IMG/VR virus record: IMGVR_UViG_3300034062_002410
Location: 21,293 to 85,292 of that record
DNA: 64,000 nucleotides
Direction: 5' to 3' (one strand)
Source of the DNA: a virus
Shown here one piece after another: positions 3,001-46,362 of the stretch; the stretch's first letter is position 1; each line of letters opens with the position of its first letter. The notes beneath the pieces are model-generated. The model had not been told where the DNA came from. It saw only the letters and a program-made list of their open reading frames with translations, and made no database searches. The position numbers were made by a program, and so were the translations under genes.

Positions 3001-6000
3001 TATCAACTTCACAAAATAATAAGTTTGGTAAATTACTAAATGCAATTAATTCTACAATAGGTTCTGATATAACTAACAATGAATCATTTACAGATTTATT
3101 AAAAAGATTTGTTTTTATTTCTCCAGTTAAAAATGTAAGTCAGGAATATAGACAAGGTCTTATCAATAAAGTAAATGAAGGAAATATATCTGAAGTTGAA
3201 AATACATTAGCAACTTCATACTTTAAAAATATTAATAAATTAGAACCTGGGCAAACAACTATATTATCTTTAGCTCCTGATATTTTAGTTGTTGCTAAGA
3301 ATGGCAGTAATGGAATAGAAGTAAAAATTATCAATAAGAATACTATTCCTGTAGAGAATAATGAAATTGTAAATAATCAAGAGTTCTTACAAAGAGATGC
3401 ACTACTACAAGAAGCATTGCAAAACTCATTATTAAATGGTTATGCTCAAGTTGGTAATTATAAACAACCAGTAATACAAGTAAATAATGATTTTACTTTA
3501 ACTACTGTTGCAAATAATTATCCAGAGTTTGTACAGAATAATGTACTAACTAATCTAATGTCTGTAAATGTAGGCACTAATGATAAACCTGTATATGCTA
3601 CAAGACTACAATCTAATATTTATTACAAACCTGTAGGAACAGCACCTGGTAAAAGTGTAAGTAGAAAAGAAGGACAGACTATGGTTAGTGATAGCAAAGT
3701 AACTGAAAAAGATAAACAAGCTATAACTAATGTAGTAGAGTCAACTTCTGATGAAGCATTTGAAGAAGCAGTAGAAGGGGTAGAACAAGATGGCTTTGAA
3801 TTATTTGGAGATACAGTAGAAGAGAAAGCTGAAGACTTAAAAGAAGTAGTTAAACAAATGAGTAATGAATCTAAAGAGATTGTAGAAAATCATTTAGAAG
3901 CAGGACCTAACTTAGATAATATAAGTGAATACAATGAGTTTTTAAACCAAGCAAGTAATAAAGTAAAATGGGTTAATGAATATTTCAATGAGGATAATAC
4001 TGAATCAGCAGAGTCTTTAGAATCTAATCAACCTAGAGAAATAGGTGAAGAAGATGTTGAAGATATGGCTATTAATTTATTGAGAATTAATGGTGTCAGT
4101 AGTAGACATCAATCTCAATTGGCTAACTATGCTTCTGTTAAACTTGGTGATATACTTTCTACTAAAGAAATAAATCAACAAGAGGTTAGAGATAAAGTAG
4201 TAGAGGATATTACTAACACATTGAATGCTAACAAAGAATCATTACAAGAAACTCTTGCTCAATTAAAAAGCATACCTCAGTATCAGGATAGACCAAAGGT
4301 AATGGAGCTTGTTGTTAAATATGAAACTGCACTTAATAAAATAAACCTTGTATTAGATAATATAGATGTTATTTATAAACAAAGTGTAGCTATAGCTTTA
4401 AAAGATTTAAATGGTAAAGTCATTGAAAATGATGAAATAGAAGTTGGTGATGACCCTAATGACAATGACCTTGATAACCAAGAGAATGAAGAAGATGTAG
4501 ATGATGAATTGAGTGAAGAAGAAGATAGACATTTAGGAACTGAAAACTATTCTAAGACTTCATTAGAGGTAAATCCTAAAGCAAGTATTACTTCTACTCT
4601 TAGAAGATTTATGAGAGGTATTCCTGATATTAGTCCCACTACTGGATTACCCAAATCAGGTGCAATGGGTGTAACTACTTATGTAGACTTTGATACTGTA
4701 TATGATGTAGTTCAATCTTTGTTAGCTGATGCTCCTGTTGATTTCAACATGATGATGGATATACTTGAAGTCAATAAAAATAAACAACCTTGGCTTCCTA
4801 TACTTATTAATAAATTAAAAGAATCAAGTTCTGAAGTTAAAAATCAGTTTACTACTACAATGGGTAAACATGCTTTAACTATGGAGTTCTTAATGTATTC
4901 TTTTGACAAAGAAGGTAATGCAACTTTTAAAATTGTCAATACTAACTTATCAAGTATTAATCGTAAAATAAAAGATGAGTGGTCAAATAATCTTACTTCA
5001 TCTAATGTTCTTATAGATGAATATGGTAATGTAAGTAGAGATACTGTTGATGAGTTACTTAATGAATATAACTCATGGATGAAAACTCCAAGTGTTTTAA
5101 GTTCTGTACATCAAAGATTTATCAAAGAAAGATTAAAACTAGGTGAAACATCTTTTAATGCTGATGAAAATAATAAAACTTTAAATATAAGTGTTGAATT
5201 AGCACAACAAAAAACTAATTCTAAAATTACAAATATTGATGGTAAAGAATATTTAGTTTCAATAGGTAGTGATGATGTTGTTTATGTAACTCCCTATGAA
5301 AGAAATATAGTTTCTAAAGCATTGGTTGATTATGCTAGTCTTACTCCTGCTGAATCCAAAGAAGCTATTGAAAAGATTAAAGATTGGTTTGATGCCTTTG
5401 GTATTGAATTAACTGATAATGCTATTGATGGATTATTTAAAAATCCAAAAGTATCAGCATCTCAATTTTTTGAGCAAAGTAATAACTTTGCAGTAGGTAG
5501 TCTTGTAAAATGGTTAGATACTACTAGAAAAGCTTTTTCACAAGATAAAGAAGTAACAATTACAGAAGGTAGTAAAAATAATCCATTAGATAATTCTGCT
5601 GTTAGTGACCTTGCATACCATCAATCTAAATACTCATCAGGTATTGTAACTTCTTCATTTAGAGATGGTAAAAAATCTATTTATGGATTTACTGCATTTA
5701 AATTTATTACTGATAGAGCTAATGAGATTAAAAATAAACCTGAGTTTAGAGATAACCTTAGAAAATTATCTTTTTCTAAAAATTCATTTTGGTTACAATT
5801 ATTTGAAGATGGTATTGATTTACCAGTATATAACTTTAAAGAAAGATTTAATGTTACTCACTTAGGTTTAACTGCACTAAAAGAATTTGCTAAGAAGTTA
5901 TACAGAGATAATGGTATTACTTCACTTGGTGATGTTGACCATGAATTAGTTAAAGTAGGTATGCATCAAGCTGACCAAGGTGCATTATCAAAGCCATTTA

Positions 6001-9000: not shown

Positions 9001-12000
9001 TACAAAACATTGCTACAGATAATGAGAAAGAGCAAGTAATGGGTAGAGTAAATCTAAACTCTTATACTCTTGATGTATCTAAGATATTAGCAATGTTAGG
9101 ATTTGACAAAGCTAAAAATGGTAACTCAATTCAGTTTACATTCTTATCTCAACCTATTATTAGAGAGTATGTAAAAGAAATGGATAATGTCAATTCTAAT
9201 GTTGCAAAGTTTAATCCTAATAAAGAATCTGCAGTAATTAATAAGCTATTAGAAAAGTATGGTAATAAGAATTATGAGTTAGGATATGATGTTGATGTTC
9301 AGAATACTAAGAACTTCACTATGGATAAGATGGAGAATCAGTTAAGAGGTGAAGTAGATAATGATTTTCAATTAGCTGTTTTAAATAGATTCTTAGAATT
9401 AAAGAAACTTGGACTTGCTGTAAGAACATTACAAGGTGCAATTAATACAGATTCAAAAGGATTAGGTAAATCTATATTAGATAATTCTCAAAAGATTGAG
9501 AGTATAAATAACCTATTGAGTAATCCAGTAATAACTAATGCAGGTGAGTTGTTAGGTAACTTTATTCCAATAGTAAAATATGAAAAAGGTAAGAGAATTA
9601 AAGCATTAAGTGATGCAGAATATCAATCTTATATAAATGATGGTTATGTAAAATTTGGTGATAACTTATTCTTACCTACTACTGTTAGTGGTGTATTTAC
9701 TGCTAGAGCATTAGTAACTGCTACTTCATTATGGGATAGGCATTTTCCATATAACTCTAAGTTATTCAATTCTATTTTTGAAAATCTAATGCCTTTGATA
9801 TCTAAAAGTGAAGCAAGTGATGCTAAGAAAGTAGAAAAGAAATCAATGGTTATTAAAGAAATCAAAAGATTCTTAAACTCTTATTCTGCTTCTAATACAT
9901 TATTTGATAATATAAATGCACAAGCAGAAAGAGAAAGATTATTCTTTGATAGACCAAGTACTGGTAAAGTATCTTTAGCAACTTACATTAAAGAACTTAA
10001 GAAAGCTAATAGTTCATTAGCATCTAATAAGTTAATAGAAAGACTTGAGTTAGTAGCAAATACTCAAGGTGAACCATCATTGATAAAATTCAATAATACA
10101 TCAGCAGGATTCTATGATGAGAATGGATTAAATAATGCACTACTTGAACTAATGGAGTTAAATCTTAACTTACCATCATTTAATAATGAACCATATACAA
10201 GTAGAAAATTAGCACAAGATTTAATTACCTATTCTTATCTTGAAGGAGGAGTACAAGAAGCAACTCAATTTGTTAAATTTATTCCATTGTCTTATCTTAA
10301 TAAGATGGGATTCACTTTTGGGTTATCAAATATTGATTTTGATTCAATGGGTGCATACTCAATATTTGATATTAATCCTGATTTACTAAATACTAACTCA
10401 AAATTCATAACTCAGTTTGTTCAACATAATCCTGGTATCTTACCTAAGTTAGATAACTACATTCCTAAAATTGGAGATATCAAAAACATAAGTGAGGTAA
10501 CTGAGTTTAACATTGAAAAAATGTTAAATGCTATTGAGTATCAAGGAATGACTGCAGCAGAGTTTTATGACTATTATAAAATGGATGCAAAACAAATTGA
10601 AGAATTTAAAATTGCACTTGCTAATAAAGTCAGTAATTTTTCAATGCCTGAGTTTGTAGCATTAAGAAAAGATGGTGAATACTTATTATGGAAAAGTGCA
10701 GGTAATGGAAATTATGTACAAGTTCCTGTAGTTCAATCAGGTATATCAGAATATGATAGTAATGTACAACAAATTACTCCATTATCATCTGAAATAGTTA
10801 CTCCTCAAAATCCTGTTAAAGAGCAACCATTAAGTCCTTCATCAGATGAATCTAAAGTAACTAATGAAACAAGATTTGGATTAGGTACTGATGCTTCATT
10901 AACTGATATAGTTACTAACTTAGCAAACTCTACAAGTATAGATGAATACTTAATAACTTTAGCTAAACAATTATTACCTGCCATTAACCCAACTACTAGT
11001 ATTACAGTAGATAATATTAAAACAAGAGGTAAATATAAAAGAGCTGAAAATGCTATAACTATTAGTGCTAGTCAAGCTAAAAATGCTACTGATACTGAAT
11101 TAGCAAGAACTATTCTTAAAGAGTTAATGCATTCTATTACTGATAATGAACTTGGTAAACATGTATATAGAAGCTCAGGAGATAATAAATACTATTTAAA
11201 ATCAAGTGATGCACCTAAGCATATTTCAGTACTCATTAATTTATTCAACCAAGTATCTAAAATACCTGAGTTTGAAAATGCAATAGAGTCTATTAAAAAG
11301 AAATTAGCAATAGAGGGGCAAGAGCAAGCACTTACACCAGAAGAAAATAGAATTTATTATGGTGCCTATGATGTATATGAGTTTGTTGAAATGATGATGA
11401 CTCAACCTGAGTTTCAACAAGAGATGGCTAAGATTAAAACTGGTAATGGTAAATCAGTATTAGACTTATTTAAAAACTTCTTAAATACTTTATTTAAAAA
11501 TTTAGGAATACAATTTGAAACAGGTACTGTTGCTTCAGAAGCTATTGAAAATATATTAATCCTTGTTGATGAAAAAGGTAGACTTAAACAACAACCTACT
11601 CAAACTCAACTTATTGCAAGTACTCAAACTGAATCTAATTTATTTTCAAAAGATGAAATAGATGCTATAAAAGGAAATTATTTAAATGCTGATGATTTAA
11701 GTATTGAGCAATTAAAAACTGTAGGTTCACCTTTAAGTTTAAAATTAGCAAAATTAAAAGAAGATATAAAATCTGCTTCACCATTTAATAAAGCAGATAT
11801 GAAATTAAAAGCAATGGATTTTTTAATTAATAATGAAGAAAAATTAATTAAAGAATTACAAATCTTTATACAACAAACTCCTGAAGTTAAACCTACTACA
11901 ACATCTAGTTTACCTGGACCAGAAACTAAAATTAATATTTATGCAGGTACAAGAGAAAATGCTGAGTTAAGTAATTTTGCTATTAGACCTTTTACTATAG

Positions 12001-15000
12001 ATTATGCAAGAATAGGAGAATATGGCTTAGGTAAAATAAAATTTCAATCGGTAGAACAAGCTTTTCAATATATTAAATTTGAAGATTTACCTTATACTGA
12101 AGAAAATGTAAAAACTGCTAATGAAATTCTTAAAACTGTTGATGGAGCAAAATTAAGACAACTAGGTAAACAGTTTAAAGGATTAAATAAAAGTTCTTGG
12201 GACAATATTTCATCTCCTATGATGAAACAATTAATTCAAAGGTCTTTTGAACAAAATCCTGATGCTCTTCAAAAACTTCTTGCTACAGGTAATGCTACTC
12301 TTACTCATAAAAGTCCTTATAAAGATGACAAATGGACTACAGAGTTTCCTAAACTACTTATGGAAGTAAGAGAAGAACTTAAAGGTCAACAACCTACTAC
12401 AACTACTCAACCTAGTACTCAAGAAATACAGATGCCTAAACCTACAGGTGTTTTTACAGAAAGATTAAATGAAATTAGAAAAATATATAGCGGTAATAAA
12501 TCTTATATAAACACTAATGTTAGTGGTGCAGAAGCTTGGGAACAAATAAATGCACAGCAAGGAAATGTTAAACCAGAAGATATTTATAATATTAAAGATG
12601 AAATAGGAGGTAATTTGTTTGAATATTTTAATAGAGCATATCAATATATAACAGGAAATAAATTAGTACAAGATAAAAATTTTGTAATACCAATAAATCA
12701 ATCTTCTAAATCTACTACAACTACTCAACCTATTGTTACTCAAGAAGTTAGTAAATCTGATTTAGAAAAATTAAAACAAACTCCTGAAGGTAAAAAAATA
12801 GAAAAAGAAAGACAAGAAGAATTAAAACCTTATTTAGTAACATCTATTGATGATAAGATTAATATTATAAATGAAAATCTTGGAAAAATGGGATTTGCAG
12901 GCTTAGCTAATTCGCCATCCATTATTTTTACATTTAATGAAAGAGAACCTTCTACAAGTTTTTTACAAAAACCTATAACAAAAGAAGGAAGTAATTATCG
13001 AATAATTACAAGTAGATATAATGTACTTGTAGATAAAGATTTTAATATTATTAGTACAACAAATGTTGATACAGGAAAAACTTATAAATATAAAGAATCT
13101 GAAATAGGAAATTCAATAGTTGAAATAGGAAGAGTTCCTGATAATTTTAAAGTATCTCAATTAATAGAGCAACTATTTAATGAGAATACTGCTTATAAAC
13201 AAAACAAACAAGAAGAAATTAATAAAAAATATGATGAAGAATTAATTGCTGAATATAGAAAACAAGAAGTCAAACCTACACCTACTGTATCTAATTCTAT
13301 TAAGAATGATTTGTTGAATATCCTTGAAGATATAAAAAGAGAAACTGATGATGAAAGTTTAAATGATAACTTAGAGTTTCCTGTTGTAAATGCAAGTGAG
13401 TTTTCAGGTTACCCTAATATTCAAAAATATCTTAATACTGAATATGGTATAGAACAAAGAGAATATGAATTTTTTAAGTTACATAAAGATGTAGTAGAAG
13501 ATTTGTTATCAAGTATGAAAGAAGTTAATCCTACTAACTTACTTGAAAAACTTAAATCTGTAACTGATACTAATGATACAGGAGTTGACTCTAATATTAA
13601 ACCTATTATTACTTCTGATACTAAAAAGGACCAAGAATTAATTAAAAAAGCTAATGAACAAATAAAGAATACTAAGTATGAATTATTTCCTGGTGTAGGT
13701 GCTAATGTAAAACAAACAGAAGCATTAGATAAATTAACAGATTTCTTAAAAGCACCAATAGATAAATCAGAAAAAACTCAATCTACTTTTGTATTAGTAG
13801 GTAGAGGTGGTACTGGTAAAACTACTATTGTTAAAAAGATTGTAGATGAATTTCCTGGTAGTAAAGTAGTAGGTGGTGCTATATCTCATACTGCTAAAAA
13901 TAATTTGCAAAAATCATTAAGAGGTAAAACAGTAAGGACTATTGCTTCATTGACAGGCATAGGAGTATTTGATGATTTAAATGATTTTAAAGATACAACA
14001 TTGTCAAGAGCTGATATTATCATTATAGATGAATGTTCTATGATTGATACAGCTACTATGAATAGAATTTATCAATTAGCTAATCCTAATGCTAAAATTA
14101 TATTCATGGGTGATAATGTACAGTTACCACCTATTGAAAAAAATACTAAAGAATCTCCTACTTTTAATGCAGCTACTAAACCAGAAAATAATGCTAAGTT
14201 AACTAAAAGAATGCGTCAAGGTGAAGATTCTCCTATTGTACCTTTATCTGATATTGTAGCAGAAAATATTGAAAGGTCTGAAAAAGAAATAGAAAGAAAA
14301 GTTATTAAAAGAAGAGATAGTAACTTTAATCCTGTAACTAATAAAGGTGTAATCTTTACAGATAACAATGCTGAACTAATGAGTAATCTTGAAAGAGATT
14401 TTAAAGCTGATGTTCAAAACACTAAGATTATAACTTACACTAATGATGAAGGTAAAACTGGTAATCCTGGTAATAAAAAAGAAATGAATGGAGTAGTAAG
14501 AAAAATACTATGGGGTGCAGATGCTAAAAATGAATACAATGTAGGAGAAATATTAGTAGCTGATAATATTATTTATGATGCAAATATTCTTAATGGTGAA
14601 TATTATGAAGTTCAAGGGATTAAACCAATAAATGATGCAGTTAGTATTACTGCTGTTGAATTAATTCCAGGAAAAGGTATAGTTACTAATCAAAAAAAGT
14701 TTCCTGGTTATTCTTTAAAAGTAAAAGTAATTTCTGAAACTGATAACTTTAATAAAATAATAACTTTAAATTTGCCTTCTGCTGATTCAAAACAAAAAAT
14801 AGATGAAATTCAAGAAGGTTTAAAAACAGCTAATAAATCATTATTTTATCAAAATAAAAAAATAATACCTGATGTTAATTATGGTTATGCTATAACTTCT
14901 CATAAAGCTCAAGGTTCTACTTTTAACAATACTTATGTAATGGAGGATAATATTATTAACTCAGGGATGAGTAATAAAGAAGCTAATCAAGCATTATATG

Positions 15001-22798: not shown

Positions 22799-22877
22799 TA
22801 GTCCTGACAGGATTCGAACCTGTAACTTGTTCTTTCGGTTTATCCTTTCACACACGTTACTATTACGCCACAGGACT
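22799..22877 (-). tRNA. tRNA-like element without a canonical anticodon arm
   Basis: On the minus strand a perfect 7-bp acceptor (AGTCCTG / CAGGACT) with discriminator A, a 4-bp D stem (GCGT / ACGT) and a perfect 5-bp T arm with loop TTCGAAT are visible. The T arm and acceptor are textbook. The 30 bases between the D and T arms contain no 5-bp stem with a 7-base loop, so I cannot assign an anticodon. No 3' CCA is encoded. It may be a degenerate tRNA, a tRNA mimic, or a tRNA with an insertion. Confidence 0.6.
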
Positions 22878-42388: not shown

Positions 42389-42411
42389 GTTGTTATGTTG
42401 TTAAAATGAAA

Positions 42412-43918: not shown

Positions 43919-44191
43919 TTAGATAGAAGCAAAGGTTTGCTTTTTTGACTTGCTGTCATCGATGTTGCATAATGTTGCACTTAACCAATTAGTTACACCA
44001 TCTGCATCTACTTCTGCAATAAATGCCATTGGCTTTGTAACATCAAGAGTTTTCTGTACTTTAAACCATGCACCCTGATGGGTAAATGATTTATTTCCAG
44101 ACTCTTTGTCTTCCAGGATTTCAATAGATGTAGCGTTAATTAATGTTTTGAAATTGGCTACTGTCATAAATTGAACATTTTTCTTTTCCAT
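43919..44191 (-). CDS. Small paralogue A of a duplicated family, 90 aa
   Basis: Similar along its length to the 93-aa gene at 45,446: VANFKTLINATSIEIL against VADFKAFIGVSKLDIY, GAWFKVQK against GSVWINIQK, and NWLSATLCN against NWLKARLIN. The fold looks beta-rich and small. Copy 2 of the promoter repeat lies 27 bases upstream. Function unknown; a possible host-takeover or inhibitor protein. Confidence 0.7.
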   Translation of the reverse strand: MEKKNVQFMTVANFKTLINATSIEILEDKESGNKSFTHQGAWFKVQKTLDVTKPMAFIAEVDADGVTNWLSATLCNIDDSKSKKQTFASI

Positions 44192-44273: not shown

Positions 44274-44303
44274 AGAGAATAGAGGTTTTATCCTCTATTC
44301 TCT
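44274..44303 (-). terminator. Terminator of the folded RNA
   Basis: A perfect 12-bp stem AGAGAATAGAGG / CCTCTATTCTCT is followed by T-rich DNA (TTTTTATTTTTT) on the minus strand. It ends the gene-free transcribed region. Confidence 0.88.
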
Positions 44304-44484
44304 AAAAGTTAATAACAGAGCATACATTGTTTCACTAAGATAGAAATAGAGAATATAGTCTTCCAACTGACATCACTCACAGTAGCAATTTTCTTCTAAA
44401 CAATTGTGCACCATTGTTTAGTTACTTCTTGTTGTACTGCATCAGCTTTCACAAGCTGATTATATCTTAATTAGTATGTTGTTA

Positions 44485-44628
44485 CTAACTACTGAAATGA
44501 GGGGTCCAGGGCCGATTAAGGATTAGGACCCCTCTAAAAAATAACAGTATAGCAATCCCAAACCTTTTATTTGCTTTTCTAAGATTATCAGAAATAAGTC
44601 TACTCATAGTGGCCCCATATAGGAACAT
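44485..44628 (-). CDS. Doubtful 47-aa frame inside the folded RNA
   Basis: ATG at 44,628 to TAG at 44,485 encodes a peptide with a hydrophobic middle (FGIAILLFFRGVLIL) and a Pro/Trp-rich end. It runs through the strongest hairpin of the folded RNA. It is either a membrane micro-protein that makes the RNA a messenger, or chance. Confidence 0.25.
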   Translation of the reverse strand: MFLYGATMSRLISDNLRKANKRFGIAILLFFRGVLILNRPWTPHFSS

Positions 44629-44697
44629 ACTTTCAAACCTTAAGTCTTTACTCTAAAGGTATTTATACTATTGTTTGCAACCAATAAGTATAAATAA

Positions 44698-44740
44698 AAT
44701 ACTGTCAAAACTAAGCAAGAGTTAAAAATGAAGAACAAAA
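44698..44740 (-). promoter_or_regulatory. Promoter-like repeat, copy 3
   Basis: Minus strand: TTTTGTTCTTC, TTTAACT, TAGTTTTG (44,706-44,713), then ACAGTATT. The expected start near 44,700 falls at the first hairpin of the folded RNA, with no gene after it. Confidence 0.75.
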
Positions 44741-44751
44741 TAAAAGATAAA

Positions 44752-44779
44752 AAAGTGAAGGGATTTCTCCCTTCACTTT
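44752..44779 (-). terminator. Terminator after the 89-aa gene
   Basis: A perfect 12-bp stem AAAGTGAAGGGA / TCCCTTCACTTT that includes the stop codon region and is followed by T-rich DNA on the minus strand. Confidence 0.85.
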
Positions 44780-45047
44780 AGAACTTACTAGTAATTGCTG
44801 CTACTTTCATAGCAATGATTTCTTGCTTTATAAACTCAACAGCTCCTGTATTTTGTGCTGCTGGGTTTTCTGAAAACTCTTTCCACTTGTAGTTGTCAAA
44901 TACTATTGTTTTATTGACAATTTCATCAATAAAGTATTTGAACAGATATGCTGCCCTGTGGGCATTAAATCTACTATCTTCTGATGTGCTATAGTTGACA
45001 CTTCTGTCAACTAATGATGCTAAAATGTGATAAGCTTTACCGTACAT
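44778..45047 (-). CDS. Hypothetical protein of the small-gene array, 89 aa
   Basis: A helical protein (KAYHILASLVDRSVNYSTSE, then HRAAYLFKYFIDEIVNKTIV) with no recognised family. It has its own promoter repeat (copy 4) 24 bases upstream and its own terminator, a self-contained cassette. Confidence 0.65.
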   Translation of the reverse strand: MYGKAYHILASLVDRSVNYSTSEDSRFNAHRAAYLFKYFIDEIVNKTIVFDNYKWKEFSENPAAQNTGAVEFIKQEIIAMKVAAITSKF

Positions 45048-45445: not shown

Positions 45446-45727
45446 TTAGAAGCTTTCAGTAAACTCCATCTTGCGTGTGCCTTCAGCACAATTAATCAGC
45501 CTAGCTTTAAGCCAGTTTGGTTTACCATCTGGGAGTAAATCATCGGTAATAAATACCAATCTACCCTTCATATCAATGTCTTTTTGGATGTTAATCCAAA
45601 CACTGCCAGCTTTAATGGATTTTTTGCTGGGGTCTTCTTTATCGGTATAAATGTCAAGTTTAGATACACCGATAAAAGCTTTGAAATCTGCTACTTCCAT
45701 GAAGTAGGCTTTAGTCTTGTTGCTCAT
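45446..45727 (-). CDS. Small paralogue B of a duplicated family, 93 aa
   Basis: Aligned without large gaps to the 90-aa gene at 43,919 (VADFKAFIGVSKLDIY, VWINIQKDIDMKGRLVFITD, NWLKARLIN). It is the outermost gene of the leftward transcripts, next to the divergent region, so it is probably among the first expressed. It has promoter copy 6 and its own terminator. Function unknown. Confidence 0.7.
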   Translation of the reverse strand: MSNKTKAYFMEVADFKAFIGVSKLDIYTDKEDPSKKSIKAGSVWINIQKDIDMKGRLVFITDDLLPDGKPNWLKARLINCAEGTRKMEFTESF

Positions 45728-45999: not shown

Positions 46000-46362
46000 A
46001 TGAAAGCATTAAGTAAAAGGTTAGTATTAGATAGTAAGAGGTTTTATAATATTCATTTGTCAATTGTTAATGCTATTATACCCACTAAGCTTACCCCAAA
46101 AGAAATAGAGATACTTGCTTTGTTTATGTCCTTGAAAGGAGATATAGCTAAAGATAGATTTGGTACTACTGCTAGGAAGTTAGTAATGAAGGAATTGAAT
46201 TTATCTGATGGTGGACTAGGTAATTACCTCAAGTCTTTGAAAGAGAAAGGATTTATTTCTCCTACTAATGAAATATTACCTTTTCTTATTCCTAATGATG
46301 ATAAGCAAGAATACTTTTTTCAACTTATAAATGAGGAACATGTCAAGGAATCCATTGATTAA
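46000..46362 (+). CDS. Winged-helix-like DNA-binding protein, 120 aa
   Basis: LTPKEIEILALFMSLKGD, then TARKLVMKELNLSDGGLGNY and LKSLKEKGFI make a winged-helix or MarR-like fold. It is the first gene of the rightward structural module and conserved in position in crAss-like phages. A late regulator or packaging factor is plausible. Confidence 0.65.
   Translation: MKALSKRLVLDSKRFYNIHLSIVNAIIPTKLTPKEIEILALFMSLKGDIAKDRFGTTARKLVMKELNLSDGGLGNYLKSLKEKGFISPTNEILPFLIPNDDKQEYFFQLINEEHVKESID

Follow-up and report, generated by a model that had tools for sequence, protein, structure and literature searches.

Phage structured RNAs of unknown function are a known kind of element, represented by GOLLD, ROOL and the RAGATH motifs, and the RNA described here belongs to that kind. 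GOLLD combines a conserved 3' part with a variable 5' part, palindromic loops and proximity to tRNA genes, features that recur in the present RNA. However, many of its members exceed 800 nt, compared with 423 nt for the unit studied here, and the fold differs (PMC12286853). ROOL, another ornate RNA borne by phages, can multimerise by kissing loops (PMC12286853), but its solved example has 659 nt and a different fold. Neither was matched with Rfam, at gathering score or at E<=10. RAGATH and hatchet RNAs (Rfam RF03145, RF02686, RF03159 and RF02678) are likewise structured RNAs of crAss-like phages, lying in arrays within unannotated gaps. The conserved core of our RNA matches none of them, its unit has its own promoter and terminator, and any self-cleavage would be an inference; the only RAGATH match at E<=10 was a chance-level one to RAGATH-8 (10 bits), on the terminator hairpin. 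Phage tmRNA is represented in the cultured relative FpV4 (L243, NC_041872.1), where an RNA gene of this type (11948-12362, minus strand, Rfam 58 bits) lies in a 2.3-kb unannotated gap in the corresponding noncoding region; our core has neither a tRNA-like domain nor a tag frame. The pRNA of phage phi29, also small, forms multimers through loop-loop contacts; no match to it was found.

Few known viruses are as abundant as the crAss-like phages. As far as sequence comparison can tell, the stretch analysed here (the window, 64 kb out of an 85-kb virus record) comes from a freshwater relative of these phages. The 690-aa terminase of the window shares 51% identity with those of the Flavobacterium phages FpV4 and Fpv3 and also matched crAss-like phages; Fpv3 has been counted among the crAss-like relatives in a review (PMC10136315). 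The close relatives in IMG/VR are a set of fragments; in most of them the terminase is 57-100% identical. Pfam searches with ten proteins neighbouring the RNA gave no clue except a weak winged-helix match in the gene at 46000. Two small cassette proteins (43919-44191 and 45446-45727, minus strand) look like paralogues (36%, L031 comparison) and belong to no Pfam family. A tRNA at 22799-22877 (minus strand) was detected by Rfam (48 bits), while ARAGORN made no call with default settings.

Between 42.4 and 45.8 kb, short cassettes follow one another on the minus strand, each consisting of a promoter box, a gene and a terminator (Table 1). One unit of this series, 423 nt between a box and a 12-bp terminator, contains no credible gene. 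The first-pass annotation had proposed that this gap holds a structured RNA with its own promoter and terminator; the analysis agrees and adds the strand, minus, which had been missing. The box, claimed as a copy of the small-gene promoter, does match that of the neighbouring cassettes (consensus TTGTTCTTC..TTAACT..TTGACA-TATTT). Scans allowing up to three mismatches retrieved four matches against none expected by chance, and a looser scan of the minus strand found six copies, at 42411, 44218, 44697, 45071, 45355 and 45754. In five of the six the cassette holds a protein gene, as had been stated, with 23-27 nt between the box and the start codon. The unit at 44697 is the outlier in start spacing: its only ORF of at least 30 codons begins 69 nt past the box. 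The claimed terminator was found together with its T-run, in a region with 12 terminator-like sites compared with 1.1 in shuffled sequences. Since the next gene has its own promoter, the RNA unit is not a leader of that gene. Directly after the closing stem P1 there is a U-run of 4 nt in the window (44304-44307) and of 6-7 nt in the relatives L025, L019 and L017, so in these relatives the core itself could end transcription.

Table 1. Features of the RNA unit, its surroundings and the modules of a near relative. Positions are those of the window unless a relative is named.
Feature	Position	Strand	Basis or further occurrence
Intrinsic terminator of the RNA unit, 12 bp and T-run	44274..44303	-	terminator scan
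Conserved 3' RNA domain (core): P1a, P1b, P2, P3, P4, P4b, P5, P6	44308..44490	-	CM matches (window, L025, L019), covariation
3' side of core base, GAAACAAUGUAUGCUCU (joining strand, P1b 3' strand, CUC bulge, P1a start), conserved	44317..44333	-	alignment
P6 hairpin, GGAA loop; replaced in L019	44349..44378	-	CM alignment
P4/P4b arm, encloses P5	44379..44440	-	CM alignment
P5 hairpin, loop GGUGCACA kept	44396..44421	-	5/9 pairs changed on both sides
Self-complementary loop GUGCAC, candidate kissing-loop dimer contact	44406..44411	-	invariant in three lineages
P3 hairpin, GNRA loop (window GUGA, L019 GUAA)	44441..44460	-	6/8 pairs changed on both sides
P2 5' strand, partner 44334-44342	44463..44471	-	4/9 pairs changed on both sides
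P1b 5' strand CAUAC, partner 44321-44325, invariant	44474..44478	-	alignment
P1a 5' strand, partner 44308-44317	44480..44489	-	4/10 pairs changed on both sides
47-aa ORF, unconserved outside species group	44485..44628	-	blast, shuffled-peptide tests
5' domain of the RNA, specific to species group	44491..44695	-	L031 99.5% identity; not in L025/L019; folding z -1.2
9-bp G+C-rich hairpin, GAGGGGTCC/GGACCCCTC	44499..44534	-	unique in 64 kb; not kept in L025 or L019
Promoter-like box common to small-gene cassettes	44696..44741	-	motif scans, start-codon spacing
Intrinsic terminator of the preceding cassette (gene 44778-45047)	44752..44779	-	12-bp stem and T-run
Module A, UAAUGCACCA..CUCACUUCCCAAGGGUGAGCAGUUGUAAUA, insert of 37-176 nt, ..ACAACUGAGUGC	L031:969-1683	-	also L030, L051, L065, L066, L165-L236
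Module B, GUUGAGGRCACCAGUUUCUU..AAGUUUUAGGUGUAAAA	L031:969-1683	-	also L017, L030, L066; NC_055897, NC_055898, NC_055889, MT774382

The 467-nt stretch folds with a z of -5.5, to which its parts correspond unevenly (-4.4 for the 183-nt core and -1.2 for the 5' 200 nt). Since two neighbouring protein genes reach -2.4 and -3.3, little can be concluded from folding energy alone. At least six stems had been predicted, and they are present, including the GUGA hairpin AUCAGCUU-GUGA-AAGCUGAU.

Homologues are more informative about which part of the RNA is maintained. In the near relative L031 the whole RNA is 99.5% identical, compared with 79-95% for the neighbouring genes. In L025 and L050 only the 3' 183 nt are kept, in a syntenic ORF-free gap and at 93% identity, whereas protein genes of the window and L025 share 65-81% at the DNA level. 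A diverged core, 58% identical and only weakly detected by nhmmer (E 0.001), occurs in L019, L061 and L108. A covariance model (CM R1) built from the window, L025 and L031, with L019 left out, recovered the L019 core at full length (72 bits, E 3e-17). When the three lineages were aligned with the CM, 97.7% of cells were paired and 21 pairs differed on both sides, compared with 7.1 +- 2.1 for shuffled data; when the partner was slid by 1-3 columns, doubly changed pairs fell to 1-3. Such an alignment leans towards its own structure, being fitted to it. Separate MFE folds of the window, L025 and L019 gave the same topology except for P6, which is absent in L019; the common order is P1a, a single-A bulge, P1b, P2, P3 (GNRA), P4/P4b and P5 (GUGCACA loop). 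RNAalifold, run on the columns of the CM alignment, retained 50 pairs, among them 21 doubly changed. About 12 G-U cells in the pair table count as pairs only when the minus strand is read as the RNA and become A-C mismatches on the plus strand, which fixes the strand. For the full core only three independent lineages are available, and the window and L025 are close within it.

The first-pass annotation had named covariance among homologues as one check on an RNA, and conservation of a 47-aa frame instead of stems as one possible refutation. The stems covary across the three lineages, and the frame has no blast homologue outside the species group, being absent from L025 and L019. Judged by this covariation, the 3' 183-nt part is a real RNA domain whose fold, rather than sequence, is kept in related phages. 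The claim of a structured RNA is supported, with the refinement that this domain alone is conserved as structure and the 5' 200 nt are not. The G+C-rich stem was likewise found as described, the only perfect 9-bp stem of such GC content in the 64 kb and without a counterpart in 20 shuffles, but relatives outside the species group do not keep it. Pattern searches for this stem returned mainly unrelated contigs.

Within the core, conservation is concentrated in the base and in two loops. The base is invariant, with CAUACUA on one side and a AAUAAUGUAUGCUCUG-type sequence on the other, while the stems have been rewritten; the domain also has the conserved internal loop AACAUACUA / GAAAYAAUGUAUGCUCUG. 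The GNRA and GUGCAC loops were kept while their own stems changed. GUGCAC occurs only once in the RNA, so any pairing would be with another copy, and the 6-bp duplex is predicted at -10.7 kcal/mol. In L017 the core base has only a small hairpin for a top; with 20 bits (E 2.7e-4 within its own record, about 0.01 in 444 kb), this is probably, but only probably, a minimal form of the core. Models R1 and R2 gave no convincing match in FpV4, crAss001, phi14:2 or four gut phages. No neighbour genes are shared around the RNA, which thus behaves as a cassette. Directly after the core homologue of L019 lies a tRNA gene (4660-4900, minus strand) with a 128-nt insert at the anticodon loop, called by ARAGORN as tRNA-Tyr(ata) with an intron.

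The RNA itself is new within the reach of these searches, being absent from Rfam 15 and, by blast, from phage records. The Rfam search that had been suggested (release 15) yielded no match at gathering score, and those at E<=10 were at chance level. When the window, the freshwater relatives and the L019 unit were scanned with Rfam, only tRNAs were returned, apart from a weak DUF805b match in L176, so the RNA falls in no known family. No match was obtained with blastn against 50,697 phage records, and structured noncoding RNAs are not discussed in the crAss genome papers searched. Several candidate resemblances and hits were set aside: a scan of GTDB genomes with the core pattern gave a single match, in Galliscardovia, not scored by the covariance model; the contigs retrieved by two viral scans for the 3' sequence AATGTATGCTCTG were mostly unrelated; and resemblances to group I introns, the hammerhead core and twister-sister, judged by eye, were dropped.

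The unit had also been presented as a lone exception among protein cassettes. It is an RNA cassette, but not a lone one: crAss-like phages swap many structured RNAs in this region, and this is one of them. At the corresponding place other relatives have different stretches, structured and free of ORFs, which are built of modules common to several phages. L031 has an extra structured stretch of 715 nt (88% identity over 448 nt to L030 and L141), in which modules A and B were recognised. A 30-nt piece of module A is exact in 75 viral contig stretches, and in nearly all of them the 3' partner strand, which was outside the query, follows. Among its 60 distinct copies there are 55 inserts, 37-176 nt long, that are unrelated to one another. 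The carriers are mostly crAss-like, and 27 of the 31 longer contigs encode a relative of the window terminase. Module B is common to freshwater and human-gut Crassvirales, the gut copies lying in unannotated gaps of 1.2-2.2 kb. In cr114_1, cr115_1 and cr53_1 these gaps also contain hatchet ribozymes and RAGATH RNAs (RAGATH-7 and -14; RAGATH-6 and hammerhead matches were below gathering score), with a tRNA-Leu near in two. No ribozyme match was found in the window or in the freshwater relatives scanned, in contrast to this setting. The RNA is part of a larger pool of phage RNAs, exchangeable and so far undescribed, that reaches human-gut Crassvirales. In two distant relatives, ORF-poor minus-strand stretches adjoin a winged-helix gene (L150:6538-10000, 3.5 kb; L146:1-779, 0.8 kb, low folding energy).

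In the reading that we favour, transcription would start at the small-gene promoter and end at the terminator, the transcript itself being inferred. It would comprise a species-specific 5' leader and then the conserved 183-nt multi-helix domain, predicted to fold compactly with its GNRA loop and conserved internal loop, and the GUGCAC loop of one copy may pair with that of a second. The RNA would be one of a set of accessory RNA cassettes exchanged among crAss-like phages, most likely with a trans-acting role during infection, in which it would bind some factor of the host or the phage and might, for instance, serve counter-defence or takeover. A trans-acting accessory RNA is favoured because the unit is a transcription unit of its own, does not serve the next gene as a leader and moves as a cassette. 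In the absence of transcript data, we consider it very probable that the unit is an RNA gene acting as RNA. Dimerisation is inferred from a single conserved palindromic loop and is possible, no more than that. A role in counter-defence is doubtful, being inferred from the variable accessory setting with no partner or defence system tied to the RNA; trans action and target are inferences too. Taken as a whole (independent RNA gene, folded 3' domain, trans-acting accessory cassette), the account has slightly better than an even chance of being correct.

Self-cleavage is the main rival, since ribozymes accompany a sister module. The core would then be a ribozyme or RAGATH-type motif processing its own transcript, with the invariant internal loops of P1 as active site. 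The loops at the core base are indeed invariant and asymmetric, the base survives under the truncated top of L017, and the other RNA module of L031 shares gut Crassvirales gaps with hatchet, RAGATH and sub-threshold hammerhead matches. Nevertheless, no Rfam ribozyme model (hatchet, twister, hammerhead or pistol) matched the core at E<=10, the core was not found in the ribozyme-bearing gut phages, and the unit already has its own terminator; we regard self-cleavage as improbable. Alternatively, the transcript might be the mRNA of a small (27-47 aa) hydrophobic peptide, with the structured part as its 3' regulatory region, an arrangement found in some type I toxin transcripts. A short ORF does lie upstream of the core in the window, L025 and L019, and of the three pairs in shuffled-peptide tests, two gave p = 0.02 and 0.04. 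The third pair gave p = 0.78, however, blast detected no homology, the start lies farther from the box than in protein cassettes (69 nt vs 23-27) and a hydrophobic look is common in AT-rich frames, so that a peptide mRNA seems rather improbable.

The palindromic loop bears on two further readings. A packaging RNA like phi29 pRNA could use it for kissing, and the terminase gene is only 3.6 kb away, but no pRNA match was obtained in Rfam at E<=10. Moreover, the other searched relatives that share the packaging gene lack a CM match (most records, many of them fragments), so the RNA is probably not needed for packaging, and we give this reading almost no credence. A small functional relative of GOLLD and ROOL, caged or oligomeric, would have a structural role as a homo-oligomer; the conserved 3' and variable 5' parts, the symmetric loop and the tRNA in L019 resemble GOLLD (PMC12286853). 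Its clearly smaller size and the lack of an Rfam match make this very unlikely. Finally, a replication or recombination site with inverted repeats in DNA, not an RNA gene, would covary too, and for the L019 core the antisense strand folds no worse than the sense. G-U pairs and GNRA loops on one strand, with promoter and terminator in register, leave a DNA element hardly credible.

For the favoured trans-acting accessory RNA, the exchangeable modules suggest a more general idea. CrAss-like phages may carry combinatorial RNA modules with a near-invariant base and exchangeable tops, shuffled like protein domains, the tops binding targets under diversifying selection as in counter-defence; in this full form the idea is speculative and rather unlikely. 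There is weak evidence that the window core is one such module, with a full top in three lineages and a truncated one in L017. The swappable-top arrangement could be new, but module A is its one strong example, and for the core the evidence is weak. An RNA gene supported by covariation, along with exchangeable modules, would make part of the unannotated DNA of crAss-like phages interpretable, and it supplies concrete RNAs for tests of cleavage, oligomerisation and host defence.
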